This document shows positions 11,567 to 42,224 of a stretch of DNA of 64,000 bases, piece after piece. How positions within the stretch are numbered: position 1 is the stretch's first letter; each line of letters starts with the position of its first letter. Location of the stretch: positions 310,001 to 374,000 of the forward strand of contig PUDQ02000105.1 of the NCBI GenBank assembly GCA_002964805.2, given 5' to 3'. This DNA is from Trametes villosa. Lineage: Eukaryota; Basidiomycota; Agaricomycetes; Polyporales; Polyporaceae. The notes beneath the pieces were generated by a model that made no database searches, was not told where the DNA came from, and was given only the letters and a program-made list of their open reading frames with translations. Both the position numbers and the translations under genes were made by a program.

Positions 11567-11595
11567 TATGAGAGACTCTATCGGACAAAAATCCC
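11567..11595 (+). repeat. terminal inverted repeat, left
   Basis: Reads TATGA-GAGAC, then TCTATCGGACAAAAATCCC. The complement of the right end reads TATGA-AGCAA, then TCTATCGGACAAAAACCC. Apart from the five-base spacer and one transition the two ends are identical over 28 bp. Confidence 0.85.
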
Positions 11596-11840
11596 GGCGA
11601 GCTGAGTGAGCGGACAGCATCGTGCCGCCCGGGCCGTCATCGTGACGAGGCGCCGAGTTTAGACTGCCCGCGCCACACGATCGAGCCTTCCGCAACGTCG
11701 CCCGTCATCGTGCCGCACCGTGCTGGACTGTACATACTCGTCTGGTGCGTTCGTTCGTTCATCGTGATCCTCCCTGGGACTCAGACACCCTCCCCAGAAT
11801 ATACACGGTCGTCATGATGCTGGGCCCGTCATGACTGCCG
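11596..11840 (+). repeat. subterminal repeat cluster, left end
   Basis: Short copies of a CATCGTG-centred motif: GCATCGTGCCG (near 11,617), TCATCGTGACG (near 11,638), TCATCGTGCCG (near 11,707), TCATCGTGATC (near 11,759), and weaker TCATGATGC and TCATGACTG forms near 11,811 and 11,829. Such subterminal repeats commonly bind transposase. They end just before the HECT-like gene, whose promoter they may overlap. Confidence 0.65.
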
Positions 11841-11971
11841 CTCGGCGCGCAGCGCCTGGACTGCTGCCAGTGCCTGCCGCATACGCCGCTGGACAAGTTC
11901 AGCTACGCCCAAGGAAAATCCCCCTGCAACTCTCCTCTGCCCGCACTTCACCTCTCTGCTCTTCCACGACC

Positions 11972-14900
11972 ATGTCGGACTACCTCCCAAAGCGCGACGA
12001 CTGCCAGTATCCTGGCTGCACCGCGTGCGCTTGCTTTGTATACCTGATTGACAATGTTGCCTATTATGTTGGTATTCGCTTCATCTACACTTCTCCACCA
12101 CTGACGCTGTTCATACAGGAAGCTCGGGACGTCCTCCAGCCCTGCGACGTTTGCGAACACCCGTGGTATTCACATCTCGCGCGGCGTCGTGGAGGAGAGG
12201 ATGCCCATGCCGGGATGGAGCGTGGCGGCTGTGCCGTCAATGCGTGCGGCGGTTTCTACTCGGTGCGCTACCTCGAACATCGTCCTTCGCATCCCGTACT
12301 CACGTTTGTTGTAGTCTGATTCTGTTTGGCAGCCGCGCAGCATTTGCGCCTGCGGTGCGCTGTGGGGCGCGCATGAGGCCCTGGGTACACCCCCGGGACC
12401 ACGGGCCATGTAAGAAGGATCATCCCTCTCACTCTCCGTTATCCTGCTGACCCTTCGGTAGCCTGCAAGCGCCACCCCATGCTCATTTTCCACCGCTCGC
12501 TCCTCCGCCCTTCGGAGGTACTCCCCCGGCCCATGCCTCCCCGCCTGTGACAGCTTTTTCTACCGTCCCTGCGCCGGCAGCTGGCTCTGCCAACTCTCGC
12601 CGCCTCAACAGTGCACGGCGGTTCTCTGCCCACCCGTCTACCCCAACCAACATAGCTGCGTCGCTCAATGCCCCGACCATCCGCAACCTCCCGCCTGCTC
12701 TCACGGCGACACAGGCAGCGTTCACCAGTCCCCAGGCTGTATCGCCGGTCGTTCAACCACCTCCGCCGGCAGCAACTCCAATCGCTTCTGTCAGCTCTCA
12801 GACGGCTCCCACTCAGGCTGCAGAGCCCGACACCACGTTCTGTGTTGGGTTCTATCCGTTCGCTGTACGTATTCACTCATTCTGCACACTTCTGCTCTTA
12901 TATCTTCCCTTCTCCAGCCTCGGCCGCCCAACACTGGACCCCCCGATCTCGCCAGCGCCTCCATGCCAACAGGCTCCACGATGTCTTGGCACGGCGACCA
13001 GCTTTCCGCGGTACAACACGCGCTGAAGGTCGCCAAGCTGGTGTTCGAGGTCACGTTTCCAGGCTCGACCTCGAGGACCGAGCCTGTATGGCGGTCGTTC
13101 AACGACCAGGTCGTTGACTATTGCCGCCGTCAAGATATCAGCATCCCACTTCGCACCAACGTCTCCTCACAGCCCGATGGCCCATCCACTCTCCGGTGGC
13201 AGGTCTTACGGCCGGGCCGGTCTTACACTACAAACGGCACCCGAACGGTCAAGTACGAGAGCTTCAGTGACCTGACGGCAACCAGCTTCACGTTGGCTGC
13301 GCTTACGGCCAAGCCCCTTGGCAACGTCACGCCGAACCACGTAGGAAGTGAAAAATTTATCTTTATTGGTGCGTCCAAGCAGCAATCCCCATCCGCCCGC
13401 CCTTGCTGACATGTAGTTTGGCCGCAGCGCCCCGTTATGGCAGCCTACGCGCGCCCATCCTCCCACTCCTTTACGCTCATCAGGCTCCAGCTCTTGAGCA
13501 TCCCAACGAACCCCATCGTTGCTTTCCTCTTCGAACACTAGCTCATCCTCTGCGTCACCGCGAGGTGAACTGTTTCACGTCGTGCATCTTCCCATCCCAG
13601 ACCAACGCACCCGAGCCTGGGCCAGCTCCTGTGCTGCCCACCTCAGCCGATGCAGAAGAGCCGGAGGCCACCCCTTCTGACGATGATGCGGCCAGCACCT
13701 CCTCTGATGAGAGCGTGAGTGAAAGCATCTCTCGGACACTATTACCTGGCTGATGTTGGACCTTACCGCAGGGCCTTGCAGATGTTCCGCCTCCCCCGAT
13801 CAGCAGTGCTACCTCCGTTGGTCGCATCCCTGGAGCCGCTGCAGCGAACTCTCCTGTCGTTCAGCATATCGCCGCTTCAATGGCTCCGCGTGCACCTGCC
13901 CGTGGAGCATCCACACGGGCCAGGTCTGACTCTCTTCGTGTAAGTGTGTCAATCTTGTATGTATTGTCGCTACTAACCGTGCACAGGACGCTCTTCCTGG
14001 ACCCTCTCCTCAACGCCCCCGGGTCAACACACCCATTTGGCATGCTGACAACCAGGTATGCATGTGCTCACGGGCCTCGTCTATGAATGAGTTGATTGAT
14101 ATACTATTCCAGATGCCCGCCAACGTTTTCGTTGCGTCCCCATATATTCCCATTCAACCGTCCGAGATTCAGTCTTGGCGTGCAGCTGTCACCGCAGCTA
14201 ACCGTCCACGGCCAGGCCAGACCCCAGCCGATTTCAGAGGTCCCACAGCAGAGGCAGTCGGGAGGGCGCTGCTATTTTACCTTACATGGCAGTTAAGCCC
14301 TGCGCGTCGAGACGACTCCGCGTTTGCCTCTGCACTGCAGGATGAGGTACCAGGCACCTCATGCAAGCTCGTCCCTTTGAACGCGCTCTTTGGTGAGGAG
14401 CGGCAGTTCCACGTGTATGTGCTCCTCAGCCCCTGGCTATCATGACACTGTCAGACTCATGACGTTTTCCAGAGATGCAGGGTACGGTTCCGGTGTTGAA
14501 CGTGCCGTCTTGGAGGCTGCCATCCAGCACATGGTAGCACAGGCGCCGTTCTGGACGGAGGCTGGCGCCTTCAAGACCCTCAGCTTCCATAGCTCGAGGG
14601 ACGGTGGCCTCGATGGTCGTGAAACCGCTCTCAGGGCGTTCGGCTTCCTCTGTTATCTCCACATCATCAATGTGGGTGTAGGCCCCTCCCCCGTATCTCC
14701 GTTCCTGCTCTACGCCACCCTTGCTGGGCACTCCGACATGCTCATCGACAAGGCGTTCATCGAGGACCTCGACTCAGACGCCTACGGGAGCCTCAGGCCT
14801 TGGCACGAGTGGACTCTTTCTGGAGCCGCACTTCCCGATCGACTGCAAAGTCAAGGCGGAAGTCCATTGGCGACGCTACTCATCGCGGCTGAGATCAATG

Positions 14901-15862
14901 TATGTCCTGAACCAGCTCTCCTACGTGTCTGCGTTCTAAGGCTGATCATCTACAGGTCACGGTTTTGGAAGGGCGTTGTCTTCCAGAACTCGAGCGCCAG
15001 GGCGTCGAGAGGTCCCTGGTCAACCAGATCCTGCTCGGTTTTCCAGAGCCGACACGTCATCCTGACTTTTGTGCCTTCCGTGCCGGCTTCGACTTCCACC
15101 CCAGCCACGACGTGAGCACGTCTCATCCAGTTCTTTCCGAGGTATGTCACCGCGTTCAGCATCCACCACTATCGACTCCGCGCTCCGTTTCCAGACTCAC
15201 TTATCATGCAGGTGTTTCACCGCCGCACCAAGGGGTTGCTAGCTGCGCTATACAACCGCCACATCCAAAATGTCGAAGACTTCATCGACTCACACCTGAC
15301 CTTCGCCAGCAGCAATGCCGGTCCTGAGTGTACCCAACAGGAGCACCGCTTCCGTTCCTACTTGGAACGTTACCTACGCGGCCCTGGTCATCCTGACCAT
15401 CCCCACCTGCATGGTCTTGTGTTACCCGAGACCATCACAGCTGACAAGGCCAACGCAGTTCTCCGAGCCTCCCTTCTCCTCCGCGCAATGACGGGCTCGT
15501 CCCTCATGCCACTCGGCACTTCATGGCGTCTCAAGGTATGTTCAATGGTAGCAATTTCTTGTGCAACGGGATACTGATGAATTCACAGTTCACCTTCCTT
15601 CATTGCGAGCTTGACACCAACGGGAGCACAGAGGGCCTTGATTGCGCGGTCTGTCTGGCCTTCCCCTCTGCTCATACAGATGCTCATATGTTTGTTTTCT
15701 TAGCCGGCGCCCATAAAGTTCCAAGCTTGCTTCAAGACTGCTCGTGTTACATTAGATCCGGCCCTCCACAACCTGCTACTCGAGGAGTGCGAAGGGGCGA
15801 CTCTGTTTGATGTTTGGCTTCATGCTACGATACTTTACTCCGATGGCTTCAACCGCCCTTGA
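11972..15862 (+). CDS. HECT-like E3 ubiquitin ligase with Cys-rich N terminus
   Basis: Fifteen exons (11972-12037, 12119-12262, 12333-12409, 12462-12864, 12918-13368, 13417-13517, 13601-13714, 13772-13939, 13987-14055, 14113-14414, 14473-14899, 14956-15141, 15212-15535, 15589-15648, 15704-15862) give 1,016 aa; every phase fits. Residues 1-95 hold a Cys/His-rich module (YPGCTACACF, CDVCEHPWYSH, GGCAVNACGGFYS, ICACG). A Pro/Ser linker and a middle domain (WHGDQLSAVQ) follow, then an acidic Ser-rich linker. From about residue 530 the C-terminal part is HECT-like: GYGSGVERAV, ALRAFG, SPFLLYA, RAMTGSSLMPLG, then FQACFKTA with the presumed catalytic Cys973 about 43 residues before the end (canonical TCF becomes ACF). 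The intron before exon 7 has a weak donor. Activity as an E3 is inferred only. Confidence 0.8.
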
Positions 15863-18000
15863 TCGTAGCTCCCTCCCCCCAAAAAATAGTACCTGTACTA
15901 CACCCCCTCTCTACTCTCGCAATGACACCTTTAGAGCCTGCTCCATGATCTGGGAGCTGCATCAGTTGCGGGCACACTCAATGACCTGCCGGTGCAGCAT
16001 GTACCCCTCTGCAACGTTGCACGCGCAGCACGTACCACGGCTCGTGGCAGGTGGCCACGTACTCGCGCGACATTGCGAGCACGTCCTCGTGCCCACCCAC
16101 TCGTCCTCTACTTTAACAACATCGTGGTGCATGTCTCCGCCGCGTAGTCTGACGCTGTGTCCCCGAGCCCGGTTGGGAACTATCTACCAGCCCTCTGTCT
16201 CCTGGCATCTGAACGACATGGTCTGTATACTGCACCATCTGCAGCATGGCCGGCAGTACGTACATAGACACCGTGAGGGTGCTAATGCGGTTCCGAGAGG
16301 CCTGACTTCCGGGGGACTTCTCCGCCGCACTTCGATGTCTCCGCCATGCTTTGAAATCCTCCCCATTCCTACCATTGGCTACGTTCGCGAACCCGAGTAC
16401 AACTCTCCTGCGTCTGCGCGCAGGGCACCGCCCACGGCCGATGCTACTACACCTCCCGAGACGTCCTGTGCACGCTGCGCGAGGCGTGCGCCATGACCCT
16501 CAGGCAACGCGCACCATGCGCTAGTTGGTGTCCAAGGATGCATGACACCACTGTGCCTCGTCTGACATCCCGGCCGACACGGCCTGATCTCGGGCAACGA
16601 CATGGGATATAGTGTAGCTAACAACCTCGTCACGGCACGGAGACGGCGCACATGCGCGATGCACGAGACGGCAGCGCAAGCAGAGGCGGGAACACCGCGG
16701 CGAGGCGTCCACAGAGTGGCGGCAGACGGAGCGCTATCCGCCTGCGCCTCTGCCCCTCGTCCCAATCACGAGGGCACCGGCTCCGCGCACTACAAGCAGG
16801 CGTGAGCGGCCTTGCAGGAGGTACATCGCCTGGGTGCATCACCCGTGCGAACGCAACCTCCAGGCGGGGGCCGAAGACTTGGAGCAGGCGGCGGCCGGTG
16901 GCGTAGGTGATTGTGGGTACACCGAGACAGCTGGACGGCGGCTGACACGGCTGGCGGTCTGTGGGCTTCACGGGGCTGGCTGTTGGCTGGTGCCACAGTG
17001 AGGGGGTTCGTGTGCGCTTGGGGAGCTTGCAGGGACGTCGAAATGTCTCACTGGCATATGCGTGCAGGAGGCGCAAAGACACCCCGCACTGTCGGACAGC
17101 TGTTAATGGTCCTCGCAGGGTGGCCGTCTGCGCATCTTCAGAGGCGAGGCGCTTTGCGGGCATCCCTGGGGCCTGAGACCTTGCATGTTGACATTGTCCG
17201 GCTGTGTGTACAAGCGCACGCGGGCATCGGGGCTTGGGGAGGATGCTCAGGGCGTGTCGACACGTGCGCAGACGTCTACTAGAACACGCCGGGAAATGGT
17301 AGTGAGTACTCGGATGCCGCACGAGACGACTACAAACTCACCGGCTCCAGCCATCAAGCTGCATGGACGCGTGCGGGACGTCAGCGGGATGTTCGTCTGC
17401 CGCCCCGCACTGTGTCCGCTGCAGCCTCGGTGGTGCTTCCGGGAGCATCAAAACTGCAGCTCAAAATACCGCCGCACCGAGACCTGGCGACAAATGCCTT
17501 GGGCTGCCAAGGATGACACGGGCGTCGTGAGTACAACACGGGAGGAGTTCCAAACAAGGCGCACTCACTCGTAGTGACGCGTACTCGGCATGCACGCGGC
17601 GGCGCGAGGGTGTTCTGCTCATCTTGCATAGGAGGTGGGTTTGGGGCGCCGGGGTTGCAACTCGCGGTGTTGGGCACTAGCGCCGTTCGCGCAGAGCATG
17701 CCTGTAGCAAGTTTTAGAAAGTGTTAGTACGTATCCGCGAGCGTCGTGGGCGCGGCACTTGCTGTAGATAGCCTGCGGGGATCCCAACGAGCACGCTGTG
17801 GTGCGGTGGCTTGCGCGCGTGCAATGCGTCGGGGGCGATGCTGAGAGACTTCGCCCGGCACACAGAGAGGCTGGGAGAGAGGAGGGCATTGCCAGTGGCT
17901 GCGAGCACGGTGATCATGAGTCGCCGCCGCGTGCAAGTGTAGGCGTCCAGGCACAGCCAGGCTTCCCGTTCATCTCGGAAGATGTATCAGTTCAGCATAG
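15863..18000. other. no intact gene; decayed interior of the large element
   Basis: Frames up to 230 codons occur but none forms a convincing exon chain or motif. An 18-mer GAGTCGCCGCCGCGTGCA at about 17,921 recurs near 24,477, suggesting shared repeat ancestry. Otherwise I see nothing to annotate. Confidence 0.5.
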
Positions 18001-18390
18001 GGCTGAGGAATATGTAACCTGAGGCCTCCTTCACACTGGCTACTGTGCCGGCCTCGACCGGTTTCCAAGGTCGAATACACGCATACAAGGCCAGACGCAG
18101 CATCCAGATGAGGACGGCCCAGAAGCACTCACCTTCGTTGCCTTCACAGAGGTGGCGATTAAGGTCATTTCAACTCGGAGTCAGGGGAGGCGGCAGCAAA
18201 GGCGCTGAGGGTGATGGAGGTTCGCCCCGAGGCCTTATATATTAGTAGTGGAGGCGGGCATCCGGCGGGCCCCGCAGGCTTGTGGTCGCATGGGTGTTCA
18301 CCGCTGATGGCGCCCCCAGGCTGGACATAGTGCCGACCACCCATCAGCGGTGCTAGTCAGAAGTTGCAGAGCCGCCGGGACCCTGCAGCA
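18001..18390 (-). pseudogene. 5' relic of a second TET/JBP-family gene
   Basis: This matches the promoter, first exon and first intron of the intact TET/JBP gene at 33,497-35,392. The intron core is nearly identical (CGACCGGTTTCCAAGGTCG, with CGCATAC next to it). The start codon (18,166-18,168), the 36-nt exon 1, the GTGAGT donor (18,131-18,132 side) and a CAG acceptor at 18,003-18,005 are kept. Immediately after the acceptor the reading frame meets a stop and similarity to exon 2 fades. The remainder of the gene is not found further along. The upstream hairpin at 18,299-18,352 is conserved with the intact gene. Confidence 0.7.
18299..18352. promoter_or_regulatory. hairpin upstream of the TET/JBP relic
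   Basis: Perfect 12-bp inverted repeat: CACCGCTGATGG at 18,299-18,310 and CCATCAGCGGTG at 18,341-18,352, with a 30-nt loop. It lies 131-184 nt upstream of the relic start codon. The same hairpin is kept upstream of the intact gene. Confidence 0.6.
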
Positions 18391-21371
18391 AAGCAGGACT
18401 TTGCGCTGGTACTATTCCTCCTTGCGAGGACGTTGTTCCGAGATGCTTTCCCTGCAGGTCCCGAGAGAGATCTAAGGATATCCTGGTCTAGTGTGCGTCG
18501 TTTCTGCCGCTTTGTGTGCTGCTGGTATGCGGAGAAGAGCCCAGCGGTGACAGCAGAGGCCGCGAGAGGTTTTCTGCAAGTGTAGGTCCAAATTCTTTGT
18601 TTGGGGAACAGGCAGGTGACGTCAGACGGGATGAGGCACGCGCGCCTACGGCATCCTTCCGTCCGCCAAGTACTGTCGCTGGGCTCTTATGCTGCTGCTC
18701 TGTGCATACACTCGAGGGGCTCTGCTTGGCTCGTCTCTGACGCCCTCGCGTTGACCGCGTCTCCTTGCTCAGTCTGCCGTTGACACTGAGTGTCAGCCCA
18801 TTCACACTCGTCGCGGGCACATCTCCCGCCCTCGCTCCGGCTCCGGTCGTCCTTGCTTAGTGCACATCTCCAGCGCCCAGCCCGTCTTCTCCGTGCATAC
18901 TGGCGACCATAGAAAGGGGCCGTCCCTGCGGCGCTGAGCCCAACCCGCCCTCGTCCCTTGCAGCTAGCAGCCGACATCTACTCTGGGTCGGCCATGCTCG
19001 CTCACTCTATCCAGGCCAGCACTTGCAATTCACGCGGCTGTCAATTCGGAAGCGCTGAGCGCTGAGCGCCCGCAAGGACGTCCCCACATATGCAGTCAGA
19101 ACTTCTCACCATCAACGCGCCCCACTCCAGGTCGCCTGCGGGCAATAGGTGTGCCCATTCCGCACCTAAATGTTTTTTGCAAACATGCTGCACTGATCTC
19201 CTGCTTAGAACACCATGCACACTGCAGGCACCTTTTCCGTGCCCTCCCCCAACGTCTACCACGACGCCTGCATCGCCGATGCGCGCCATTCATACAATCG
19301 ATGATGCGGCGGAGGTTGTTCCTGCCTCAGGTGTGTTTTCGAACGCCGCAGTCGTGAAATGCGCCCACATCATCGGGTTATCAGCCGACCGGCCTCATGG
19401 ACGCTGTGAGGCCTCTACGTCACTTGCGTCCGCACGCAAAGTGTCCTAGAGGGTGTCATGAATGTCCTGAACGATGTGCGCCACGCAAAACAGCGCTCTG
19501 GCGCTCCGGGAGCAAGCACAGATACCGCCCGCTGAGCGTGCCGGCGCGCGCAAGACCATCGACGACGTCGCGTGCTCGCAGGCACGGCGTCCGCTTCGAG
19601 GACGGCGAGAATGTCAAGATGTTCGTCGGGTTGATGCGCAGGGGGCTGAACGAGAAGAACGCCGCAATGGCGTATCAGGTCGGTGTTTGCGGCCTTTCCA
19701 TGCTTTCGGCAAGACTAACAATGTCGCAAAGTCCCTTGTCGATCTGGTACTTCTGCACCCACGCCCGACCGACCCAGAAGCAGCAATGCTCTCATCCACA
19801 TCCCACGTCCGTGTGCAGGTCGAGCAGGCGCAAATGGACATCATCCGCTATATCCGCCAGGCGCTGGCTCACCATCAAGCAAGACAACGGCTTCGCAGGG
19901 CTCAAGCCCGGGGCGGCAAAAGAAATTGCCACCGGTAAGCCGCTCCTTTGTGTCTCTTCGGGTGTATCCGGAGGTCACGCCCACGTCCATTATAGAACTC
20001 GAGCTCAAGAACTGGAGCTGCTCCTGCCCACAACGTCCTTGTCGACCGCGCGCGGGGGCGCTGGCCGCCTCACCGTCCGGAATGGCCCCGTATCGCGTGC
20101 GGACGAGTCCGACACGGTCAGCATGCACTCGCTCCCCTGCACCGATGCTCCCAGCACGCCCCTCGCATGTCATCGCGTACACCAACAGCCGCCCCCCTGA
20201 TGCAAGACACGACGCGAGCCGAGCCGAGATAAAATCCGCTGTTTTTGGGCGGTTTCATGGGCAGATCCAGACGAACACATGCCGCCCGCCGCCCGCCCGG
20301 CCTCGCGCTCGGGCATACAAGCAGCCAGCGCCGCCCGCAATCCCCGTACGCTCAGCAGAGCACGGACGTCTGGAGAGGCGCTGTCCATGCGGCCGGCCTG
20401 CCTGCGCCGCAAACCAGCGCAAAGTGCATCCGCACGGCCGAACACCGTCGCAGTTCGCGTGCCAAACGCTGCGGCGTGTGCGCCCGCATCAGGGCGCACA
20501 CGCACACCCAGTGAGTCCCGCCACGATCCGCGCTGAAAAGGTTTCACCGTTTTGGTGTCGGGCGCGCCCACACAGACACGGTGTGCAGTGTGCATGGACG
20601 AGCCACGATGTGTGCCCCCCGCGAGTCCTGGGTGTCGTCCCCCGGCGCACGTCCCATAAAGCGCACGCCGCCGACCTTCCCACCCGTGCTGCCCATCGAC
20701 ACACCGTCTCCCCAGACCACCCTCGATGATGCCCGCCGTTTTTCCGGAATGTGCACACACTTTGAGTTTTGGTTGTCCGCGCGCGTCGTGCCTGCGCTGT
20801 CACCCGGCCCAACCACGCCCACCCATCCGGACGCCCTCACGGCCCGGCGTGCCCACACCCGACATCGAAGCACATCCTTGCCGCGCTGCACTTCTCATTA
20901 GCATCGCTCTCGCGGGCCTCAGGGGTCGATGAAGAACGTGTCGGAGGGCATACACACAGCAAATGTTGCTGAATTTGGGCGTAATCTCGGGGCGGGACGC
21001 GCGGTCGTGCGTACCTGCACATGTAAACCTCCGCGATTGAGCAGATGTTGGCCACGGCCGTCCACAATCATACTCACCGTGCTAATGCATCCCGGTTCAT
21101 AGGCGTGTATGCGTATGTTTGCGAAGTGGTTGGGGCCGACATCGGGCGGCGGCGGGGGCGTGGGGGGCAGAGCCGACACATCCCACTACCAGGGCCGTGT
21201 GTGAGTGTCCCAAGCGCAGTGCAGGCGGCGGCGGCGTGTTGTGTGCGGACGCCCGGCAGGTTTGTGTCCAGGGGTGCCCCCATTCCGCCATCATCAAGGA
21301 CTATGTGTCCCGTGCATCGTCATTACATGCGAGATGTCTCCGATATACATCACAGTTACACACGATGAATA
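18391..21371. other. no intact gene, apart from one coding-like fragment
   Basis: Apart from the fragment at 19,572-19,936 described separately, frames here are Pro/Arg-rich and not supported. No repeat or RNA gene was recognised. Confidence 0.45.
19572..19936 (+). CDS. coding-like fragment of unknown family
   Basis: Two exon-like blocks join in frame: one ends NEKNAAMAYQ at about 19,680, then a 53-nt intron-like stretch (GTCGGT ... CTAAC ... AAAG), then SLVDLVLLHPRPTDPEA and, further on, QMDIIRYIRQALAHHQ before a GTAAGC donor at 19,935. The residue use looks like real protein. No start or end can be fixed and no domain is recognised. It may be part of a decayed cargo gene or a gene with additional short exons upstream (a possible upstream exon ends at the CAG at 19,580). 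Confidence 0.3.
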
Positions 21372-30667: not shown

Positions 30668-30908
30668 AGATGTAGTGGGCAGATGAGAGGTAGCACAAGG
30701 CAACACGACTTGAGGTTCAAGTTGGACGCGGCGGGACGCGATTCCGCAGATGATCACGTGCAGGACAGCTGCCTCCGTCTGCCGTCCCACGATTGTCTCT
30801 GCTTGAACTTCGACCAACTACCAGCTCGACCGCCCGGGCTACTCAAACATCGCGTGCAGACCTCACATATCCACCAACGATTCTATAACCCGGAGCGCAA
30901 GATGAAGG

Positions 30909-31349
30909 TCACTCTACCGGCGCGGTCTGCTTCCGCGGTCTCCCCCCTGTTCCGGGGGTACAAGAAGGAGCGCGGCGCTTGACACCACATCCTTCTCCTC
31001 GGAGTGCTGGTTTGATTGCGGCGACTAGGGCTTCATGAACTCGAACGGCTTTATCACTGGTCGCTCGATGGCCGCTCGATGGAGAGAGGAGAACATCAAC
31101 AAGGGCGGCGGCGAGGTCATTTCCAATGATGACATCCGGGAGGAGGGCGTACGATTGTGCACAAGAGCTGCAGTCTGGCATACGTACATCATACCTCGAG
31201 CCCCTCTCAGCCTCCCCAGCCTCAAGTGCCGCGCGCTGTATTCCCTCTGTGAAACCGACTGTGCGTTCAGAGCACGGGCGGTAAGTCTCTCTCGCGCCTG
31301 CCGCTGCTCTAGTGTCTCTAGTGTCTCCGCGCCCGGCGCCCATCCCCAC
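30909..31349 (-). CDS. possible small gene or exon, unknown
   Basis: An open frame whose last about 90 residues look coding (LPDVIIGNDLAAALVDVLL, then HEALVAAIKPAL, then a basic Pro/Arg-rich end). The N-terminal half is low complexity and probably reads through intron-like sequence near 31,180. It lies 240 bp upstream of unknown gene B on the same strand and might be an upstream exon set of that gene. No family recognised. Confidence 0.3.
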   Translation of the reverse strand: MGMGAGRGDTRDTRAAAGARETYRPCSERTVGFTEGIQRAALEAGEAERGSRYDVRMPDCSSCAQSYALLPDVIIGNDLAAALVDVLLSPSSGHRATSDKAVRVHEALVAAIKPALRGEGCGVKRRAPSCTPGTGGRPRKQTAPVE

Positions 31350-33496
31350 TGGTGCTCTCGACGCCCCATCCCAAAAAGACGCTCAGGGATCACTCGGCAT
31401 ACTTTCAGGACGAGGCGTGCATGGGCACCAACACACCGCTCCCGTCCTTCGCGCAGTACGTGAAATACGCCCCCGCCGTGGATTAGGCCCATCTCATTAA
31501 CCTTTCAGCTCACCCGCCGCTTCCATTGTCCATGCCCGCCCCAGAACTACTCCTACGTCGCCTGCGGTGTGCTCAGAAGGCTGGCGCATATCGTCTGCGG
31601 GCATGAACGACGCGAGTGGCGCACTCCTCCACACCTACGACCCCGCCGCGCACGAAGACGCCGCTCGCACTCATCCCTCTTTCCCTCGCCCTCCCCCACC
31701 AGCGCCACCGGCGTGTGGAATTGCTTCATAGCCGCGCACCCGGGTGACTATATTCGCTCTGCAGGTACGCTTGCAACTGCCCCGACCGCGATGTCCGATG
31801 CTCACGTCCAATCTACACCAATCTACAGAGGGCTTCCCCCCACAAAACCTTCGACCACGGCTCGAACACGCATGATGCCGGTAGCAAGACGTCTGCACAA
31901 TATGTGTGGGGCCACATGGATGTGTGTGAAAGCTAGCACTGTGAGATGACGAAGCATGGAAGTGGCAAAGTTGGGACGTCCCGTATACAGGTGCGCCCGA
32001 TCTCGCTTCGCGCCGTCAGCACAACCAGCCGCCCCGCCTCCACGCGCTCAAGGCGCAGGCGTCGTCGACTCCGCTCCGCACGGGGAACACGAACACGACA
32101 GGCTTTGGCATTCCCAAGTCGACCATTCGGAGAGGGCATACCCCGCGGGCGGCGGTTGGGCGAATGTGCACGAGCACGACTCTCCCGCCGCGCCCTTTCT
32201 CAAGGGCCGTGTGCCACCAAGGTGCATATGGGACCACGTTGTGTTACAGATCGCAAAGACGTCGTGCACACGATGTGCTGGGCGCTGGGACGTGTCGCAC
32301 ACACACCGTGATCCACCAGGTACGTCCCCGCCTGTCGGAACGTCGCGCAACGCTCACTAACAGACTCCCGTCCTCCGTGCACGCCCGTCTCGTGCTCAAA
32401 CGCTCCGGTGACGCGTGACACTCGCCTCATCGACGGGCGTGCGCACTCAGACAGTTAGTGGCGGCGCTCGCGCAGTGTACAACTCGCTTTCGCCGGCCGA
32501 ACGAAACTCGCGCTATCGTGCGCGGCGGCGCGCCTGACCATTCCATTCGCGCCGTGTGCTAGCTGCCAGTCATATTTACGTGGTGTACGCGGTGCTGTGG
32601 GGTATGAACTGTCCGGAGCGGGGATTGTACAGACCTTGTAGGGAGAGGCGGACCATCGCAAGCCTGAAGAGCAGCCGACCCCAGTGGCAGGCGCTCATCG
32701 CTGCCATGAGCCCCTGGGAAACCCCGGCCGTGAACAGGCGCCCATTGGGCATGCAAGCCGAGGGAACATGTTACTTAAAAATCCGCTGGAACATGCCCTC
32801 TAGAGGGATTCTGATTGTGTATTAAAATAAGTAGGCACCCCATGCAACACGCTGTACACTTGGCCTGCCTTAGTAATTAATGCGGCCACTGTTATGAAGC
32901 TGCCTTGACAAACATTGGCTTCAGCGTCAATGTCGGCTATCCGAGCGGCAGTGCGCGTCGTCCGCTGAATCTGGATTCTCGCGACGGGCCTCGTGAAGAA
33001 ACAGCTGCAGAGTGCGGTTGGGCAGACGGTACGCGCTGCACTCAAGTACGTCGTGGTCCAGCTGCTCGCGGTGCGCGACCAGATGGCGCAGGCGAGTGAG
33101 GACATCGGGCGGCGCGACGGCCCTGTGCTCCGCATGCAGCTCGCCGCACGCAAGCAGGAGCGCGAGTGCACAAAGGCGGACTCAGGGAGGAGCGCGGCGC
33201 GCACATCAAGGTAGTCATGCAGATGGGTGACGAGCTCCTGTCGAACGCACCCCGATGGCTAGGTGAACCGCACCCAAGAGCGTGTGCAGGCAGCGAAGAC
33301 GGCGAGGAGCGGCGCAGCGAGGCATACTAGGCGGGGGGCGTTGCAAGACAGCCGCAATGCACGCGGCCCTGCGAGTCTCTCAGATCTGGCTATGTATGCT
33401 TGGGGGCTATCTGACATTGTGGAGGTACTTACCAGTTGGCGCAGTAGGGCGGCGGTGTGAAAGAGGGAAGATAGAGCTTTGATTTGTCCCTGTAAA
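31350..33496. other. no intact gene; contains repeat copy 2 and a short coding-like relic
   Basis: After the second dispersed repeat copy (32,678-32,937), a plus-strand stretch at about 32,993-33,214 reads as an amphipathic helix-like protein segment (ALKYVVVQLLAVRDQMAQ) and ends in a stop. It has no supported start and may be a gene relic. The rest shows nothing. Confidence 0.45.
32678..32937 (+). repeat. dispersed direct repeat, copy 2
   Basis: Matches 25,314-25,573 in the same orientation. The two copies bracket unknown gene B and its surroundings (7.1 kb between them), which could mark a nested element or a duplication by recombination. Confidence 0.75.
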
Positions 33497-35392
33497 TCAC
33501 GGAGAGCTACACAATTCTGACCAAGTACTAAACATATCTACACCGCTGAGCCAACGCTCCCTCCCTGTGCGAACATACTCGCATCCACTTGCCCCAAAGT
33601 CCTTCTCAGACTGAAATCCGCATTCAACCCAACGGAAGAGTCCACCTGCGGAATATTGGGTGAGTGAGTAACGCTTTTCGTTTGGGCCAACCGTGGTGTT
33701 CGAGTGGCGGATGAGAGCGGAGGGGATGAGGATCGTCGCCCCAGGCGGGAACTCGATGACCAACTTCGCATCCCATAGGATGATGTGCCCGCCGAGTGTG
33801 GGCTCGTAGTCACCTAGCGCCGTCACAGCGCACCAGCCCGCGGGCAGGTTTTGATGGTCGGCATGGACATAGGTCTCCGTTCGTGGCCCTAGATTGAATG
33901 TCATGCTTGCGAATGCGGAGTTGTCAAAGTTTCGCAGGAGGGTCCGATCGTGGTCGAGTACAGCCTCGAGAGTCGTCGAGTAGTAGTCATACAAGCGAGG
34001 GGCATAGACGCGGAAAGTCACTGCAATTGCCCCACAGTCAGCGGAAAATACGCGGGTCATATCAGCCGCTCTGGCATCCTCACTGTCTCCGAATTCAGCA
34101 ATCCTCTGTATACCAGAATTGGACAGGAGGTCGATCCGGACTTGCTCCTTCACCTTCGAGCCCGAGTAGGATGTGTTGCAAGGTTCCTGGATATTGGAGA
34201 TTGTCAGCGGTATGGATTATGAACTGGGTGTTTGGGCCCATACCTTCTGCCCTCCGCCGAACGATATCCCGCTAGCGAAGACTGCAAAGCATCCGCGCCG
34301 ATGCTTTAGGTCCTTCCCCTTCTTGTTGAGCTTAGCCCGGGCTTCATCCAGAGCCTTTTGTGCCTCTTCCAGAGCGCCAGCCCACGAGTCACCCTTCGGA
34401 GTCCCAGCGCATACCGCGAAGACTACTCCGTCGCTATCGAGCACAGGCAAGACGTCACTGAAAAGCACAGGCAAGACGTCACTGAAAAGCAACTCAGTTG
34501 CACAGCACAACAACGAGACCGCTTTGCGCATCCGCACCGCCCGTTCCACTCCACGTAACGTAGGCCCATGGCAAGGGCTTCATCCTTGGTAAGCGGAGCT
34601 TCATCGCTCTTGGTAGCGTCATAGCGGCGAGCAGTGAACGCCTTGGGTGTAACGGGTAGACCGCCAGGACCCGCCGCACCGTCGCGCGCTGTCACCGGGG
34701 ATGTACCGCGGACATTGACTGAGGTTTGGATGGGGATCCCGCGCTGTCGATATTTTTCGGCCACGCGCTTAACCTTTCGAGTAGTCCCGCTCGCGGCGTC
34801 TGCCTTGTTGCGCTTGATGTTGCGTAAAGCCTTTGAGCGGTCCTTGGAACGACGCTTCTCGATACCTTTGGCGTGACGCGGCGACGGCTGTGAGGCGCTG
34901 CTCGAAGTATCAACGGATACATCGGGGGCGTCAATACCTAGATTGCAATCCGCGCGAATGCTGAGTGGCTGAGCAACGACGCAGGAAGAGAGAGGCCATA
35001 CGTTGGGGTCGAGGGTTGACGGCATGATTCGCATCGGCACCGCCAGAGTCAGACTCCTCATTGTCGTCTTGCACGTCAGCGACGACCCCCCCATCGTCTT
35101 TCTCCCCAGCCAGGAGGGCATTGATAGCCGCTTCGGCAGCGTTGTCGAAAAGGGTCTTGAGGTTGAGGGAGGGCGGCAGTTGGACGCATCCGATAGCGCC
35201 CCCTGTGAGTAGTATTTCAGTGTAGTGTAGGGCTGCGGGAAAAGCAGGCCACCGCGCTGGCTACCGCGTAGGCCTCGACCGGTTTCCAAGGTCGGATACG
35301 CGCATACGAGGCCTGACGCGGCAGCTAGAGGAGAACGGCCCAATAGAGTACTCACCGTTGGGGGTCTCTACACAGGTGGCGGCCGAGGACAT
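33497..35392 (-). CDS. TET/JBP-like 2-oxoglutarate/Fe(II) dioxygenase
   Basis: Five exons (35356-35392, 35002-35232, 34538-34937, 34244-34457, 33497-34186) give 523 aa. The N-terminal third is acidic, then strongly basic (KRRSKDRSKALRNIKRNK), followed by LRYVEWNGR and LDSDGVVFAVCAG, which are landmarks of the mushroom TET/JBP expansion. The catalytic domain is C-terminal: HADHQN gives His402 and Asp404, ALIRHSN gives His455, and Arg466 in KRYSLTQYSAGGLFRW would bind 2-oxoglutarate. TET/JBP enzymes oxidise 5-methylpyrimidines in DNA. In mushrooms this family is expanded and linked to transposons (Iyer and colleagues, KDZ elements). Here it lies in a different-looking element. All iron and cosubstrate ligands are present, so it may be active. 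Confidence 0.85.
34441..34488 (-). repeat. 24-bp tandem duplication of a 3' splice site
   Basis: Two exact 24-bp units cover the acceptor of intron 3 of the TET/JBP gene. Each unit has its own TTTTCAG acceptor, so splicing at 34,457/34,458 or 34,481/34,482 keeps the frame and differs by eight residues (a second DVLPVL-containing unit). Confidence 0.85.
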
Positions 35393-35552
35393 CTCTAGCC
35401 CGACGTAGATGGGGATGGGGGCCGCGGCAGTGGGTCGAGCTCAAAGGCAGCCAGAGTAGCGAGAGCGTCGAGGGCGACTGCGTTTGGCCCCGGGCTTTAT
35501 GATACAGGCGGGCGTCTGGAAGAATCCCAGGTTGTGGGTGCATGGGTGTTCG

Positions 35553-35604
35553 CCGCTGATGGCGCGCCCCAGGCTGGGCATAGTAGGGGACCACCCATCA
35601 GCGG
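35553..35604. promoter_or_regulatory. hairpin upstream of the TET/JBP-like gene
   Basis: CCGCTGATGG at 35,553-35,562 and CCATCAGCGG at 35,595-35,604, about 160-210 nt upstream of the start codon. It is conserved with the relic copy at 18,299-18,352, along with the loop text CCCCAGGCTGG and CATAGT. Confidence 0.6.
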
Positions 35605-38600
35605 GGCAGGTCGGAAGCCGGGGAGCCGCCAGGGAGCTTGCGTGTGGGGTAGTAGCTATGCTTGCGTGGTGTATATCTTCCCTATCACTACTATATGCCG
35701 AACTGAGTGTCCGCGGCAAGCACCCGGCCACGCAGTTGGCTTGGAGACTTGGCCGTACTCAAGTCACTGGAAGCTTCGGCGGCGCCGGTGCCGTCCGGGG
35801 TGAGTGGTGCAGACGTCGAGTGCTTCGTTGACCGCTGAGTGTAGACCCCCACGCGGAGCGTGCAGGCGGATGCAGCGAGTACATATGTCTGCATCCTTCT
35901 GCATGCCGGTGTGCACTTTCGGTGCACGGTTGCGTCGTGTTGCATTTCGATGCACTCGATTGGGACAATTGCTTGTATGTATTTGTACACCGTGGTCCCG
36001 TCGAGCCGGCCACTCGCACCCTTCGCACAAACTCCCCCAGCATCATCGTCGCAGACGTCCACCTCCTTGCGGCCACCTGGTCCGTCTTCCTCTTCACGTA
36101 TCAGTAACCGTACCGGTTCTGTTTCCTACAGCTCTCCTACTACGACTAACCTGGTTATTCGAACAGCTTGCTGACTGGCCGGGAGACCAGGTGAACGTGC
36201 GCTGCACGAGCATTGCTTCACGTTACGCGGGAACGAACATCATACGTGTCTGGCGCGATACTCATGGCTCTCTCATCGAAGAGCGTGCATTTCCCACCCA
36301 CCCGTTTCTTTCGGCGCGCACTCATCCGGGCCGGGTTGGACACAGACTACAGCCCGCCCCGCGCTGATGCAGAGACGCAGCACGCAGCACTGAGTGCTCC
36401 AGGGCCGGTTGCGTCTTCCAACAAACCGCTCACGCGGATTCGGTACGTACCGCGCTCGTCGCTTGCGATCTCTGACATGTGGCTGACCGCCTGTTGACTC
36501 GGTCCTGCAAATCGCTCGGTAGTATCAGCACGCGCACGCGTCGTGAGGCGTCAGGTCCACTCTTGGCGGATGTATGAGCGAGCGCGAGCGGGGGCGGCGG
36601 GGCGGTTGCGTGCGCACGGACTGAAGCGCGTCGCGAGCAAAGGCTGAAGAGCGCGGCTGCGCTCGAGCTCCGCCGCATTAGGCGCTCGCGCCAGTCTCAA
36701 TCCGCAAAGTCCACCGCGCGCCGCAACAGCTCTTTCACTCAAGTCAGTCAGCCACGCACCCCCGCCGCCGGACACTCCCTCGATCTTCCACACTCCCCTT
36801 GCCCTCCCAAAGCTCACTTCTGAGGATTCGCGGCCGCCCTGCGATGCTGCCGGTGCAAGACTCTTAGCATTCGGCACGCGCCGGCGGATGCTCTCCGCTC
36901 GGCTGTTGGGCGGGATGCTGGTTCTTACTCTCTGCGTGATTCAGGCGTGCTGCACGAGATGCGAGCCAAGAAAACGCGAGTACCTACTCATCTTGCTCGC
37001 GACGGGCGCGGCGGAGGCGGTTCGGTATGTACCAAGTCGTCGTTTACGGATGCCCGGCGGTCGGCTGATTTGCTGTTAGATGGCTGATCACAGGCTGATA
37101 CCGCAAGGAGCGAGACGGTCACCCGGCATCCGAAGGATGCAGAGGAAGACAGGGCGGGCGGGAGTAGAACGCAGCGAGAGGAGTGTCGCGGCGGCGCGAC
37201 ACTTTGCAGATTCTCGGTGCGTCAGGATAGGCGCCCGTTGTGGCTGAACACGCGAAGACGTGTCCGACTCGCTCATTGCGTCCACGGCCGCAACTTCAGT
37301 AGCTTACCGTCAAGTCCTGCGTCTCCCTCCACGGTAGCCCTCGTTTTCCGAACATTTCGCAGCCGCACACAGCCTGTCCGATATCGTCGACGTACTGCGC
37401 TCCCACCGGTGCTCTGACCTGTCCCGGAACACACGTGTCGCGCACGGCAGGGCTTGGGACGTACCTCCACAGCGAGCAGCAGCGGGAGAGAGGCCTGGGG
37501 GTACTACGGTCGAAGAGGTACGTACGGTTTGAGGCATGGCGGCGGTCAGCATCTTACTCACCTTTCTGACTCGCCTGCAGAAAGCACGAGTGCAACGAGA
37601 CACTCCCGGGAACTGCCGCAAGAGGTAGATCGCGCGGGCGAGACGTGGAAGACGGCGCAGACGCGAGCCCACGTCGCGTCGCGTCGGGAACAGGCGCCCA
37701 TCGCCGCTCGACGTGCAGAGACGCGCCCGCGTTGCTCATCGCGTCCCCGGCCCCCACATCAGCAACCTACCGGCGGGCTCTGCTTGTCCTGCCGCGGCCG
37801 CTTCCGTTTTCCCAACATGTCGCAGCCGCTACCGGCTTCTCCGCCATCGTGATGGGACTGCCCTGCAACCAGTGAGGTTCTCACCTGGCTCGGGATGCTC
37901 GGATTGCGCACGGAAGGGCCCGGGAAGTACCTTGGCGGCGTGTTGTAGCGGTAGAGACTTGGGAAGGCGAGGAGGTACGTACAGTCTCGGGCCTGGCGGC
38001 GGTTGGCATCTTACTGACGTTTCTGACTTACTGCCAGGATGCACAAGCGCGGCCAGAAAGTCGCGTGGGCGAGATGGATCGTCGAAGGCGGCGCGGACTC
38101 GACTTTACGTCGTGTCGCGTTGCGTCGAAATGGGCGCCCATTCCGGGGCGGGTGCGCGAAGTCCGTCAGAGGCTTCCGGCTCTGTTTGCGAGCGCGGGAG
38201 AGCGTCTTCATGCTCTCCGAGATGTTCGCCGACCCGGATTGCGGGCGATCTGGCCGTACGAGCTCGGCACGGGGCTGCTCGGACGTCGAGGAGAAGCCCA
38301 GGGACGGCGATCGTCGCGATGTCGGAGGGCACGCGTCGACGGCGCGAGCAGCCGGGGGGCCTCTTTCCGCAGGGCCATCTCGTGCACAGGGAGGTACGCA
38401 CCGCCTGGCATTCGCGGCCTTAGACTCCCTGCTGACGCGGTGGGCTTGCAGACGGCGGACTTGCGGTTGGACGGTGCAGAGCAGCGCGGAGAAGGGCACA
38501 GCGCGAGGCAGCGATGGGGACGACCGACGGTGGACATGGAGCGGAGGAGAGCCTCGGCGGCGCGCAGAGGACTGGCTCATCCGCGCAAGGTCTGTAAGTA

Positions 38601-38961
38601 AGCGCTCGTCTGAGCGGAGAGCGTGACGGCGGTTTCTGGGAGCTCTTGCGGCGCAATCGTGCCCTGTGTTGTAGCCCAGTGTCTTCCGATATGCTAGCTG
38701 CGAATGCGAGAGCGTCTGCACTCCCCGTGTCCTCTGAGTGCGAGCTCGAGTGTCTCCTCCCCGAGTGTCCGAATCTCCCGCAGAGTCCCCAGTCTCCCCC
38801 ACGTCTCCCGCCGGCTCGCCTGCGCCCGCACAGCCGCACCCGCTCACCGCACCCGCGAAGGTCTGCCTAAGCTCCGCTTCTGCCTTCGCACTTCGCATCG
38901 CAGCCCACACACGCGCCCGCAGTTCGCAGCCCAACGAAATACATTCTCTGTCTATGTACAT
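35605..38961. other. no supported gene; holds an intron-like tandem repeat
   Basis: Beyond the TET/JBP promoter, GC-rich frames overlap on both strands without motifs. The main structure is the degenerate repeat at 36,440-38,455 described separately. Confidence 0.45.
36440..38455 (+). repeat. degenerate tandem repeat with an intron-like core
   Basis: Five units recur at about 36,442, 37,024, 37,516, 37,978 and 38,387. Each has GGTACGTA or similar, then a CTGAC branch-point-like motif and, in the last three, a CAG 40-60 nt later. The units at 37,516 and 37,978 are clearly related over about 180 bp (GGCGGCGGT, GCATCTTACT, TTTCTGACT, GGCGCCCATC/T). This looks like repeated exon-intron modules that have decayed. 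Confidence 0.5.
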
Positions 38962-39560
38962 CGCCGGGATGCTCCATCTTCCATCCGCCAAAGAGGCCAC
39001 CGACAAGCTCAGCCTGTCGGTCATCATCGAAACCGACCTCGAGAAGCTGATCCCGGATCTTCGATCGGGGCAGCCGGCGAGGGCCTTGTCTGTTTCACCA
39101 ACGCCACAGAGTTGAGCATCGGGCTGCGAACACGGATGGCTGCTGGATGCTGTGCTTACCTGATGCCAGGAAGTCAATAATCGAGAACTAGGTGTCCTCG
39201 CCCTGGAGCGAGTGCTCGACCATCATGCAGCGCAGCTGGTCCTGCTCCGGGAAGTTCTCCACCTTCCCGTCGCGGAGCTGGCGCATGAGCGTAGACTTGC
39301 CGGATCCGTTCGCGCCGAGGATGCCGTAGCGACGGCCACGGAAGAGGCGCAGAGGGGTGTGAGAAAGGAGCAACAGGGCGCCGTATGCCAGGGAGAAGAG
39401 GGCATCACAGGGCAGTTCTGCTTGCTCGGAAGAGTCGTTCTGGGAGCTCGCGTGCTTGGCCTCCTCAACACCCAGGAAGTGCGAGGGGACATGGGCGGCA
39501 AACTTGGTGGAGTCGGTGAGGCCTCCAGCGATCCGGCCAGGAAGGGCGAGTGAGCAGGCG
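38962..39560 (-). pseudogene. decayed ABC-F ATPase fragment (eEF3/New1-like)
   Basis: The frame contains LSLAYGALLLLSHTPLRLFR and the Walker A stretch YGILGANGSGKSTLMRQL, then VEHSLQGEDT and a TAG stop at 39,188-39,190. Past the stop the frame still reads like the family (FSIIDFLAS), followed by an intron-like GTAAGC...ACAG (39,072-39,142), then DKALAGC. After a frameshift the same strand gives DQLLEVGFDDDRQAE and GGWKM, which corresponds to the ABC signature region (usually LSGGWKM; here FGGWKM). ABC-F proteins of the eEF3/New1 type act on fungal ribosomes. The fragment is truncated on both sides, with one nonsense codon, one frameshift and an altered signature, so it is a non-functional gene fragment carried by the element. 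Confidence 0.75.
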
Positions 39561-39969
39561 CGGCTGCGAGCAGGAGGCTGCGGCGCGTGCAGTAGCCAAG
39601 CCGCGAAGCGCGCGCAACGGGGGAAGGACTCCAGTCGGTACGGCAGGCGCGATTGAGGCGGACAGCACTCGTGGACGAAGGGAGTGGCATGCGCTGCAGA
39701 CGGGTCCGGCTGCAGTGCATGCGCTGCAGGCGCCGGGCACGTCCGACACTATCCTCTGTCGCGGACGTATCAGCTGAAGCCTGAGCGCTGAGAGCGGGGC
39801 GCGCGCAGACAGCTCGGGCTCGCCGACTTACCGTCAAATTCATGACACAGCTGGGAGCGCACGCCGTCGCGATGGCGGGCGAGCGTCGTGCTGGCCGGAC
39901 ACTGCTGGGGGACGACAAGGAGCACCGCACGATATCGCGCTTCTGGGTTGTAAGAGCGCACGATATAGA

Positions 39970-41777
39970 TTATCCGTGCAAGGGGGTATGTAAACAGAGC
40001 TCGAGCGCGTGGATCCAAACAGCCTGCCGGACAGACATGTCTCGAGACGAAACATCGACCGCACGAGCAAGCTCCCGATCGAGCACCTGCACCTGGGCGG
40101 CTGTGAGCGGACACCCGGGCTCATCGCAAGTCACCTCGGAAAGACGGTCCGGCGCTGTAGGGGGAGCAAACGGATTCTGAGGGTTGGCGTCGGCAGCGTT
40201 GTTCTCCTGGAAATGTGCCATCAGATCGCGGTTCTCCAGAGCCTCCCAATCAACGCCATATTCTGCAAGGTCCTCCACCGCCGGCTCTCTGTGGAGGAAC
40301 TCCTCGATTCCCTGCGCGCCGTGCTCCAGCATGCCAAACATGAACATGTCTCGTGGACTCCGTGATTGGCCACTAGGCAGGGCCAGCAGGTGTGCGTTCC
40401 ACGTCTCCGCCCATTCGAGCGCGTCCTCGTTGATGGCGGGAAGGAAGAGATGATGGAGCAGCCAGATGTGAGCGGGGATGGTGGCGTCGAGCTGGTGGTG
40501 ACGTTCGAGCTCCATGAAGAAGATCTTCCATTTGCGACCAAACCCGCCGGTGACGTCATACCAAAGCCGCTCGATGCGCGTATTGTGAACGCTCCTGCGC
40601 CGCCGACCTGAGGAGTCAGAAGTGCCCCAAGAGCATGACATTGAGCAAGGTACATACCGCCCCCAGATGTATGACCCACGGCCGAGGCCGCGGTGTTCTT
40701 CCATCCAACGCGCCACTCCTAGATTCTCCGTGCCGTGGTCACCCCGCACGCGACTGGGTGTGCCGTGTTGGCGGACAGCGTCCAAGAACAGCGCCAAGAC
40801 GGTGGCGGCGCGGTTGTTGTTGTGAATGCGGATGCCGAGGACGTAGCGCGAGTAGCCGTCGACGAAACAATGTATCACCAGCTTCCAGTGGATTAAACCT
40901 ACAATATGCGGGTTAGCCGTCGCACTTAGCCCGGGGTGAACGACGCACCATGTTGCCCATCGTGGTGCACTAGGGACAGCGGGCCAGGTACCCAGTAAGT
41001 GCGTCTCACGATGCGACGTCGCGTTCCGAACGTCGCCGGGAGGCCGCGTACGCGCGTGTACGACTCTTTGATACGGCTTCTCGGGACATTGTGACCTTGG
41101 GATTTGAGGTGGCCGCGGATCATCTTCTGACCGAAGTTCGGGAAGACCTCCAATATATGGCTGAGAGCGGCGTCCAGATCTGCGTCTGACATGGTAGACA
41201 CGGGCCTCGAAGACGACGTGTACCGAACGGAGGCCGTGCCATCCTCACCTACGACATTGAGACGGACGGGGACACCGGGAGTCGACAAATGGAGCTCGAG
41301 CGCGCGTCGTCGGACCGTACGGGAATGGCACTTGAGGACCTTGCCGAGTTGTGTAGGTCCGCGAAGATGGAGCGCATACTGGAGGAAGTTCGGGTTGATC
41401 TCCACTCTCGGACGGCCTCGCCGCCCTGTCTTGACGCGAGTACTGACTACCAGGGGCGTGCGGGAAGAGGATGAGGATGCTTCCTCCTGGCTGGCGCTAT
41501 CGAGAGCGGCGACCATGTCCGCGAGGCTCGACCTGAGGAGTGCGTACTCCTCAGCTGGGAAAGAGTGCTCGTGCTAGGGAGCTATCTTCAATACACTGCC
41601 TAGGGTGTTGCACGGAGGACATACCACGGCGGCGGCCTCACCCAACGCCAACACCTGCACCCTCACCTCCGCTAACCTGCCGGCCTGTCCGTGAGACGTC
41701 TGGATGGTGGCCCGGACTGAGTCCGCGAGCCGATGGTAGGCCGCACGCAGATTGTCCACCGGGTGTGCTTCAGCCAT
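39970..41777 (-). CDS. retroviral-type (rve-like) DDE integrase, candidate transposase
   Basis: Four exons (41642-41777, 40949-41554, 40658-40898, 39970-40594) give 535 aa in phase. The N terminus is helical (AEEYALLRSSLADMV), followed by GRRGRPRVEI and a helix-turn-helix-like region (LGKVLKCHSRTVRRRALEL). The integrase core follows: VHHDGQHG (Asp244), FVDGYSRYVLG, RVRGDHGTEN (Asp301) and HNTRIERLW (Glu336), a spacing close to D,D-35-E. Then come WLLHHLFLP and YGVDWEAL. This family is common in Agaricomycetes. The gene is intact with all three acidic residues, starts about 450 bp from the right terminus of the large element and runs inward. It is the best candidate for the mobilising enzyme; the alternative is that it is a passenger. 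Confidence 0.85.
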
Positions 41778-42196
41778 AGAGAGCAGAGACGGAGCAATGG
41801 CAGCGGGGCGAGTAATAGTGGGAGGGTCGAGTCGGAGGACGCAGCTGGCGGTCTACTAGCGCCTGTGGTGGTTTAGAGAGGCTGACATGCCCACAGAGCA
41901 CGTCATCGTGACCGGGGCATAGTAGCGGAACTAGGAGTCATGATGATGAGCATCGTGCCGTTCCCAGCATGAGAATCTCCCTAGGCGAGCAGGCGAGGTT
42001 CACAATGACGCTGGAGTCGGGATCTACCAGGATGCATGGTGACGGGGACGTGTATACAGCAGTATGAGCGCCGGTCATCGTGCCACATCGTGAATGGGCG
42101 CCCGTCTCGACGAACGGCGGCCTGTCACGATGCCGCCGGACAATGCGGTCGGCGGCACGATGCCTCATAAGGATTACACGCCGATTCCGAGATGTT
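41778..42196 (-). repeat. subterminal repeat cluster, right end
   Basis: CATCGTG-centred motifs in both orientations: TCATCGTGACC (near 41,906), GCATCGTGCCG (near 41,951), TCATCGTGCC followed by ACATCGTGAA (near 42,075-42,093), TCACGATGCCG (near 42,125) and GCACGATGCC (near 42,157). Read from the right terminus, the order GCATCGTGCCGCC then GCATCGTGAC mirrors the left end. This region should also contain the integrase promoter. Confidence 0.65.
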
Positions 42197-42224
42197 GGGT
42201 TTTTGTCCGATAGATTGCTTCATA
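42197..42224 (-). repeat. terminal inverted repeat, right
   Basis: Complement of the left terminus: ends ...TCATA at 42,224, immediately followed by the second GTTTCT. Confidence 0.85.

Follow-up and report, generated by a model that had tools for sequence, protein, structure and literature searches.

A 30.7-kb inserted block in Trametes villosa that fits the IS3EU superfamily of DNA transposons and carries a TET/JBP-like gene

What is the large block that interrupts a tandem array in the polypore Trametes villosa, and does it belong to a known class of mobile element? The block lies in a window of 64,000 nucleotides (the whole stretch of DNA analyzed here), and an initial annotation had read it as a single, precisely inserted TIR transposon that carries an integrase, a HECT-like protein, and a TET/JBP-like dioxygenase and that matches no known description.

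Boundaries of the block and evidence for insertion

The block is one inserted unit of 30,658 bp, at positions 11,567 to 42,224 of the window. Its edges are marked by the following features.

11561-11566: left target-site duplication, GTTTCT
11567-11594, + strand: left terminal inverted repeat, TATGA-N6-CTATCGGACAAAAA
11618-11766: left subterminal CATCGTG repeats, four copies, possible transposase-binding sites
41904-42162: right subterminal CATCGTG/CACGATG repeats, six copies
42197-42224, - strand: right terminal inverted repeat
42225-42230: right target-site duplication, GTTTCT

The two inverted arms are 82% complementary over 28 bp and share TATGA and the 14-bp core CTATCGGACAAAAA without a mismatch, and GTTTCT stands as a direct, perfect 6-bp duplication on both sides of the block. 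Among the 603,877 pairs of identical hexamers separated by over 5 kb in the window, the GTTTCT pair has the best inverted-end match (23/30). Since the runner-up reaches 21/30, the in-window statistics of the ends alone are only suggestive. The decisive local evidence for insertion is an uninterrupted paralogous site at position 9,511, to which the two flanks, joined at a single GTTTCT, align with no gap where they meet. CATCGTG/CACGATG motifs occur four times in the left 750 bp, six times in the right 750 bp, and eight times in the other 29 kb of the block, compared to seven in the 33.3 kb outside it. The interrupted array, whose copies we take to be MYND, has one copy at 10.1 kb and others at 42.8, 45.0, and 46.8 kb. 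The ends, the GTTTCT duplication, and the empty paralogous site thus bear out the reading of the block as a single large TIR transposon, and the subterminal repeats and the split array were present as annotated.

Genes and repeats within the block

Three genes were modeled by hand in the block.

11972-15862, + strand: "HECT-like" gene, 14-exon model, 1,040 amino acids, no stop; HECT identity unconfirmed
33497-35392, - strand: TET/JBP-family oxygenase gene, 5-exon model, 489 amino acids, HxD and H ligands
39970-41777, - strand: DDE transposase gene, 4-exon model, 547 amino acids, no stop, Pfam rva_4, D256/D313/E348

One frame of the transposase gene matched Pfam rva_4 (1.2e-46), and D256, D313, and E348 are invariant columns of a 21-row alignment, with 34 residues between D313 and E348. 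The closest database protein, T. sanguinea ACG7TL_002586 (67%), matched the NCBIfam models IS481 (1.8e-11) and IS3 (1.4e-7), both below the models' curated cut-offs, and an HHCC zinc motif is absent from the window's transposase. A structure model of the T. sanguinea homolog (55-row alignment, pLDDT 83) matched retroviral intasomes, TnsB, and IstA with E values of 5e-6 to 1e-4; the TM-scores over the whole query were low (0.16 to 0.26) because only the core aligns. The gene therefore does encode a DDE integrase or transposase, and its description as "retroviral-type" holds for the fold but not for the sequence, given the IS481/IS3 matches of the closest homolog and the absence of HHCC. Homologs passing an E value of 0.001 numbered 344 among 7,990 proteins scored. 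The best matches among the 120 of them that were listed came from Trametes and Ganoderma, and the named proteins in that list presumably all belong to mushroom-forming fungi.

The gene next to the left end points inward. Its HECT name rests on motifs that we take to be characteristic (GG..RE, TGSS..P, ACFKT, and a terminal GF), and we could not substantiate it: Pfam HECT had no match in four HECT-like proteins, the PF00632 profile had none in the window's HECT-like protein (C102) at E ≤ 10, and a profile search of PDB gave none either. Ubiquitin-ligase activity is no more than possible. An AlphaFold model of the P. ljubarskyi homolog P0001 (three-row alignment, pLDDT 28) was uninformative on the fold. 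Of 7,993 candidates scored, three were homologs, two in P. ljubarskyi (54% and 48%) and one in T. sanguinea (40%); these came from a single-sequence search, whereas a wider search with the HECT-like alignment returned nothing. In T. sanguinea, the locus tags of the HECT-like and transposase genes are six apart (002580 and 002586), and in P. ljubarskyi, the HECT-like P0001 and the transposase P0077 lie on contigs of equal length (303,782), taken as one contig. This supports linkage of the two genes in both species, where they are known without element ends.

Within the T. villosa genome, the sole related HECT-like locus besides that of the window is C122:123058-124178 (34 and 42%; one piece contains stops). 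This locus is on the inner side of a TATGA..GGACAAAA terminus at 119847, and a weak N-terminal HECT-like match is found 0.7 kb from this terminus. A TET-like gene follows 7 to 8 kb beyond the HECT-like gene, in the same relative orientation as in the window. Read along C122:119001-139000, the order is the terminus TATGACGGTGGTTATTGGACAAAA, the decayed HECT-like gene, and the TET-like gene. Neither a transposase nor a confirmed right end was found at this locus, and C122:133295 was rejected as a right end, with 16/28 positions matching and a 4/6 duplication.

The TET-like gene is on the transposase strand, between the transposase and the opposed HECT-like gene. The window's copy alone matched neither Pfam Tet_JBP nor any PDB chain, and a 20-row profile of the family retrieved no relevant chain from PDB. 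Among 20 family members of the genome, however, 11 matched Tet_JBP (PF12851; E ≤ 5, best 1.1e-4) and 9 matched 2OG-FeII_Oxy_3 (best 0.0016), and the H, D, and H ligands (HxD plus H) are invariant in the family alignment. It is through these relatives that the presence of a TET/JBP-like dioxygenase gene in the block is supported. At least 34 TET-like rows occur in the genome, of which two, at C45:99 kb, were left out when neighbors were counted. At 7 of the 32 loci so counted, a KDZ transposase match lies within 7 kb (72 KDZ positions, from 116 rows). The window's contig holds no KDZ match, and a nested KDZ element as the carrier of the TET-like gene was rejected on that basis. Not one of the 32 loci other than the window's is within 780 kb of an rva_4 locus, and 33 of the 34 rows are not beside an rva_4 transposase. 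A tree of the family does not place the window copy. A 24-bp tandem duplication at 34410-34470 repeats the splice acceptor of the gene's third intron. In addition, 18036-18386 is 67.5% identical to 35257-35641, which corresponds to the first intron and the upstream part of the TET-like gene; because the latter covers the gene's 5' part, 18036-18386 may be what is left of a further TET-like gene, or a promoter common to both.

Much of the block's interior recurs elsewhere. Counted from searches with 16,000-39,900, and with the window's own matches and those of the TET family excluded, at least 12,384 bp of the block (40.4%) were found at other places in the genome, in these stretches.

16280-18731: dispersed-repeat stretches (relatives on C60, C24, C3, C5, and others)
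19542-20131: dispersed stretch, 93 to 95% identical to C140
24020-25600: dispersed-repeat stretches (C118, C1, C85)
27527-33333: long dispersed stretch, 89% and 77% identical to C85:30531-35350
35779-39534: dispersed stretch, 77 to 85% identical to C87:589202-592784

In the left 4.4 kb, the first 640 bp were searched as DNA and gave one short match. With 40% or more of its length repeated in dispersed form, the block probably owes part of its size to nested debris; this step is inferred, as nowhere in the block could the ends of a nested element itself be identified. An LTR retrotransposon at 25.3 to 32.9 kb was considered and rejected, as the direct repeats of about 270 bp have no clear boundary and no 5-bp duplication. 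The stretch shared with C87 includes a piece of an elongation-factor-3/New1-type ABC-F gene at 39191-39748 on the - strand (81 residues matched, 1.6e-24), and a 265-amino-acid open segment in the stretch shared with C85 (30023-30817, - strand) matched no Pfam family. Positions 37219-37571 and 37681-38028, in a dispersed stretch, form a direct duplication with 70% identity.

The same terminus elsewhere in the genome

A search of the 46.7-Mb genome for TATGA-N11-GGACAAAA gave 16 matches, compared to one for the reversed control pattern. Twelve of the 16 termini form six pairs, the window block included, each with a perfect 6-bp duplication. The occurrences outside the block are as follows.

C1:6508127-6555945: large unit, 47,819 bp, duplication GCTCCG
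C6:2635-80077: large unit, 77,443 bp, duplication ATGTCG
Three short copies of 958, 961, and 962 bp: duplications GCATCA, AGACGT, and CGCCTC
C3:3319527, C3:4172884, C122:119847, and C1:6555980: termini for which no partner was found

A lack of other loci with these termini and matching target duplications would have spoken against the annotated transposon; five further pairs were found. That a single genome holds three large units with defined ends is what stands out most in the analysis. Between the three short copies, 938 to 946 of 958 positions are identical, which points to fairly recent movement. Their interior resembles the 77-kb unit only across the first 24 to 39 bp, and they can therefore not be called deletion products of that unit.

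A protein search of the genome identified 17 transposase-matching pieces in six loci, including the window. Each of the three large units holds one transposase locus, which lies 8 kb from the nearer end in the C1 unit, 13 kb in the C6 unit, and 0.45 kb in the window. A further locus, on C3, begins 530 bp inside an unpaired terminus, and those at C1:6500 kb and C27:182 kb have no exact terminus nearby. A scan for TIRs and duplications around the C3, C6, and C27 transposase loci gave no convincing pair; the C6 right end was beyond the stretch scanned and was identified by the terminus pattern.

The C1 and C6 units are known mainly from their ends and transposases, C6 having been read over its first 50 kb and C1 over short loci. 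Genome searches gave no TET-like and no HECT-like match in either unit, and ten C6 segments matched no Pfam family. The annotated pairing of an integrase with a HECT-like gene at opposite ends of 10- to 50-kb blocks was overstated: it was found again only as linked genes in two other species, and the other two large units have no HECT-like gene. If the contents are cargo, they vary from unit to unit.

A true HECT domain, nearest to HUWE1/TOM1, was found within the 77.4-kb unit at C6:68166-69119 (- strand). Its gene lies toward the end opposite the unit's transposase and is convergent with it, a position and orientation that may be coincidence; two pieces of the C6 HECT have no detectable relation to the window's HECT-like protein. 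On C1, two TATGA..GGACAAAA termini in the same orientation lie 35 bp apart (6555945 and 6555980), and the 47.8-kb unit seems to have landed within the end of another such element.

Class assignment and competing explanations

According to the available text of PMC10045372, TA..TA termini are a constant feature of complete IS3EU families, and 6-bp duplications a usual one. Here, the termini read TATGA..TCATA, all six pairs carry 6-bp duplications, and the DDE transposase is IS3/IS481 related, by the profile matches of its closest homolog, and has no HHCC motif. On the published description of ends, duplications, and transposase, the block fits the IS3EU superfamily. It shares all these traits with IS3EU/GingerRoot as described there. 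The bounded units of T. villosa reach 30.7, 47.8, and 77.4 kb. IS3EU has also been annotated in Ganoderma, as stated in the available text of PMC8955403.

TET-carrying IS3EU elements are themselves on record. In the text available for PMC12730594 (Kojima 2025), they are reported from seven rust species (Pucciniales) and from Tuber indicum, with TET always between the transposase and an opposed alpha-kinase, and TET is proposed to counter silencing of the fungal transposons that carry it. The same text reports TET in Polyporales only with Kyakuja. Like those elements, the block has 6-bp duplications, TA ends, and a TET gene between the transposase and an opposed third gene, and as in three of the published families, TET has the transposase orientation. 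Unlike in them, the third gene encodes a HECT-like protein and not an alpha-kinase; the genome has three alpha-kinase matches, none of them in the bounded units. The rust elements end in TAYGG..CCRTA with TIRs longer than 30 bp, compared to TATGA here, and the TET ligand is HxD here and HxE in the truffle-type PE class (PMC12730594). KDZ (Kyakuja/Zisupton) elements of Agaricomycetes resemble the block in carrying a TET/JBP gene but differ in having an unrelated transposase and duplications of 7 to 8 bp (PMC12730594). The block is as unusual as the initial annotation held, but its class is known, and it represents no new transposon class: the statement that no matching description exists is contradicted by what is available of PMC10045372 and PMC12730594. 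As far as the latter paper goes, what is new is a TET-carrying IS3EU in this host group and its partner gene. Our searches of the open-licence literature found no paper on giant or cargo-carrying IS3EU elements or on HECT-associated transposons in Polyporales or Agaricomycetes, and those on TET/JBP transposons of Agaricomycetes and on cargo-mobilizing basidiomycete transposases found none.

Starships use a tyrosine recombinase. The block is like them a giant fungal element with cargo but has a DDE transposase, TIRs, and 6-bp duplications. Its terminal genes are the HECT-like gene, without a Pfam family, and the rva_4 transposase; no tyrosine-recombinase captain is among them, and a Starship was rejected. 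The initial annotation had cited Starships as elements of ascomycetes, where they are known, and the available text of PMC13066641 now adds eight in Tremella, a basidiomycete. A Polinton was provisionally set aside: the 18 segments scanned with Pfam, out of 244 stop-free segments of at least 75 amino acids, contained no Polinton/Maverick polymerase, packaging ATPase, or capsid, and HHCC is absent.

We propose that the transposase would bind the termini and the subterminal CATCGTG repeats and join the two ends to the target strands at positions 6 bp apart, and that repair of the 6-bp stagger would leave the 6-bp duplication. By analogy with Kojima's proposal, the TET/JBP-family oxygenase probably oxidizes 5-methylcytosine on the element and so counters silencing. 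The HECT-like protein is probably an accessory transposition or host-interaction protein, and dispersed repeats nested in the element probably account for much of the rest of its length.

We consider it probable that the block represents, in complete form, a giant IS3EU-superfamily DNA transposon in which the TET-like and HECT-like proteins act in this way. The terminus recurs with perfect 6-bp duplications at five other places, two of these units hold related transposases, the gene order is that of the published TET-carrying IS3EU, and C122 repeats the terminus together with HECT-like and TET-like genes. On the other side, the inverted-end match is only slightly above the best chance pair, the 47.8- and 77.4-kb units lack both accompanying genes and have their transposases 8 and 13 kb inside, 33 of the 34 TET-like rows are away from rva_4, the window's TET copy misses Tet_JBP, no alpha-kinase lies in the bounded units, and the C122 right end is unconfirmed. 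A rival reading is a short IS3EU core of transposase and HECT-like gene, inflated by later insertions, one of which brought in the TET-like gene as something other than the element's own machinery. TET-like genes are indeed a dispersed family (at least 34 rows, with a KDZ match within 7 kb at 7 of 32 loci), at least 40% of the block recurs, and 18036-18386 resembles the 5' part of the TET gene. We nevertheless find this reading unlikely: the window's contig has no KDZ match, the TET-like gene sits between two recurring stretches and yet no ends were seen in its own flanks, order and orientation are those of the published TET-carrying IS3EU, and the second HECT-like locus, on C122, also has a TET-like gene 7 to 8 kb away.

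Very improbable, in our judgment, is a new giant integrase-based class outside IS3EU, which the initial annotation had put forward. Units of 30.7, 47.8, and 77.4 kb and a fold nearest to retroviral intasomes would agree with it, but IS3EU as published accounts for the ends, the duplication length, and the transposase, and for the same reason both a Starship and a new integrase class were set aside. Least credible of all is that ends and hexamer coincide by chance and that the block is nothing more than repeat-rich sequence or an assembly error. One other hexamer pair of the 603,877 does reach 21/30, but such a coincidence would leave unexplained why the paralogous site at 9,511 is empty, why the terminus recurs with perfect duplications at five other places, and how a stop-free transposase model comes to lie 0.45 kb from one end.

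Returning to the giant IS3EU element, we tentatively suggest, as a possibility that may well prove too broad, that mushroom-forming fungi host a giant IS3EU lineage of 30 to 77 kb that moves whole, with exchangeable cargo between conserved termini, as a DDE counterpart of Starships. In the focal lineage, a TET-type demethylase and a new third protein would be coupled to transposition; the copies of 0.96 kb would be short non-autonomous relatives using the same machinery. If the units move whole, a simple TIR/DDE system suffices in basidiomycetes to mobilize tens of kilobases, which would make structural variation and gene transfer testable there as Starships did in ascomycetes. If true, the proposal would also extend TET-carrying IS3EU to a polypore, with the published gene order and a different partner gene, and allow a test of whether silencing is countered by demethylation that a transposon encodes.

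Two further features were observed outside the block. In the left flank, 34 bp from the block, a fold-back at 11300-11532 has 69-nucleotide arms that are 97% complementary and looks like a small inserted inverted-repeat element. In the right flank, 50509-50972 and 52525-52988 form a direct duplication with 74% identity.
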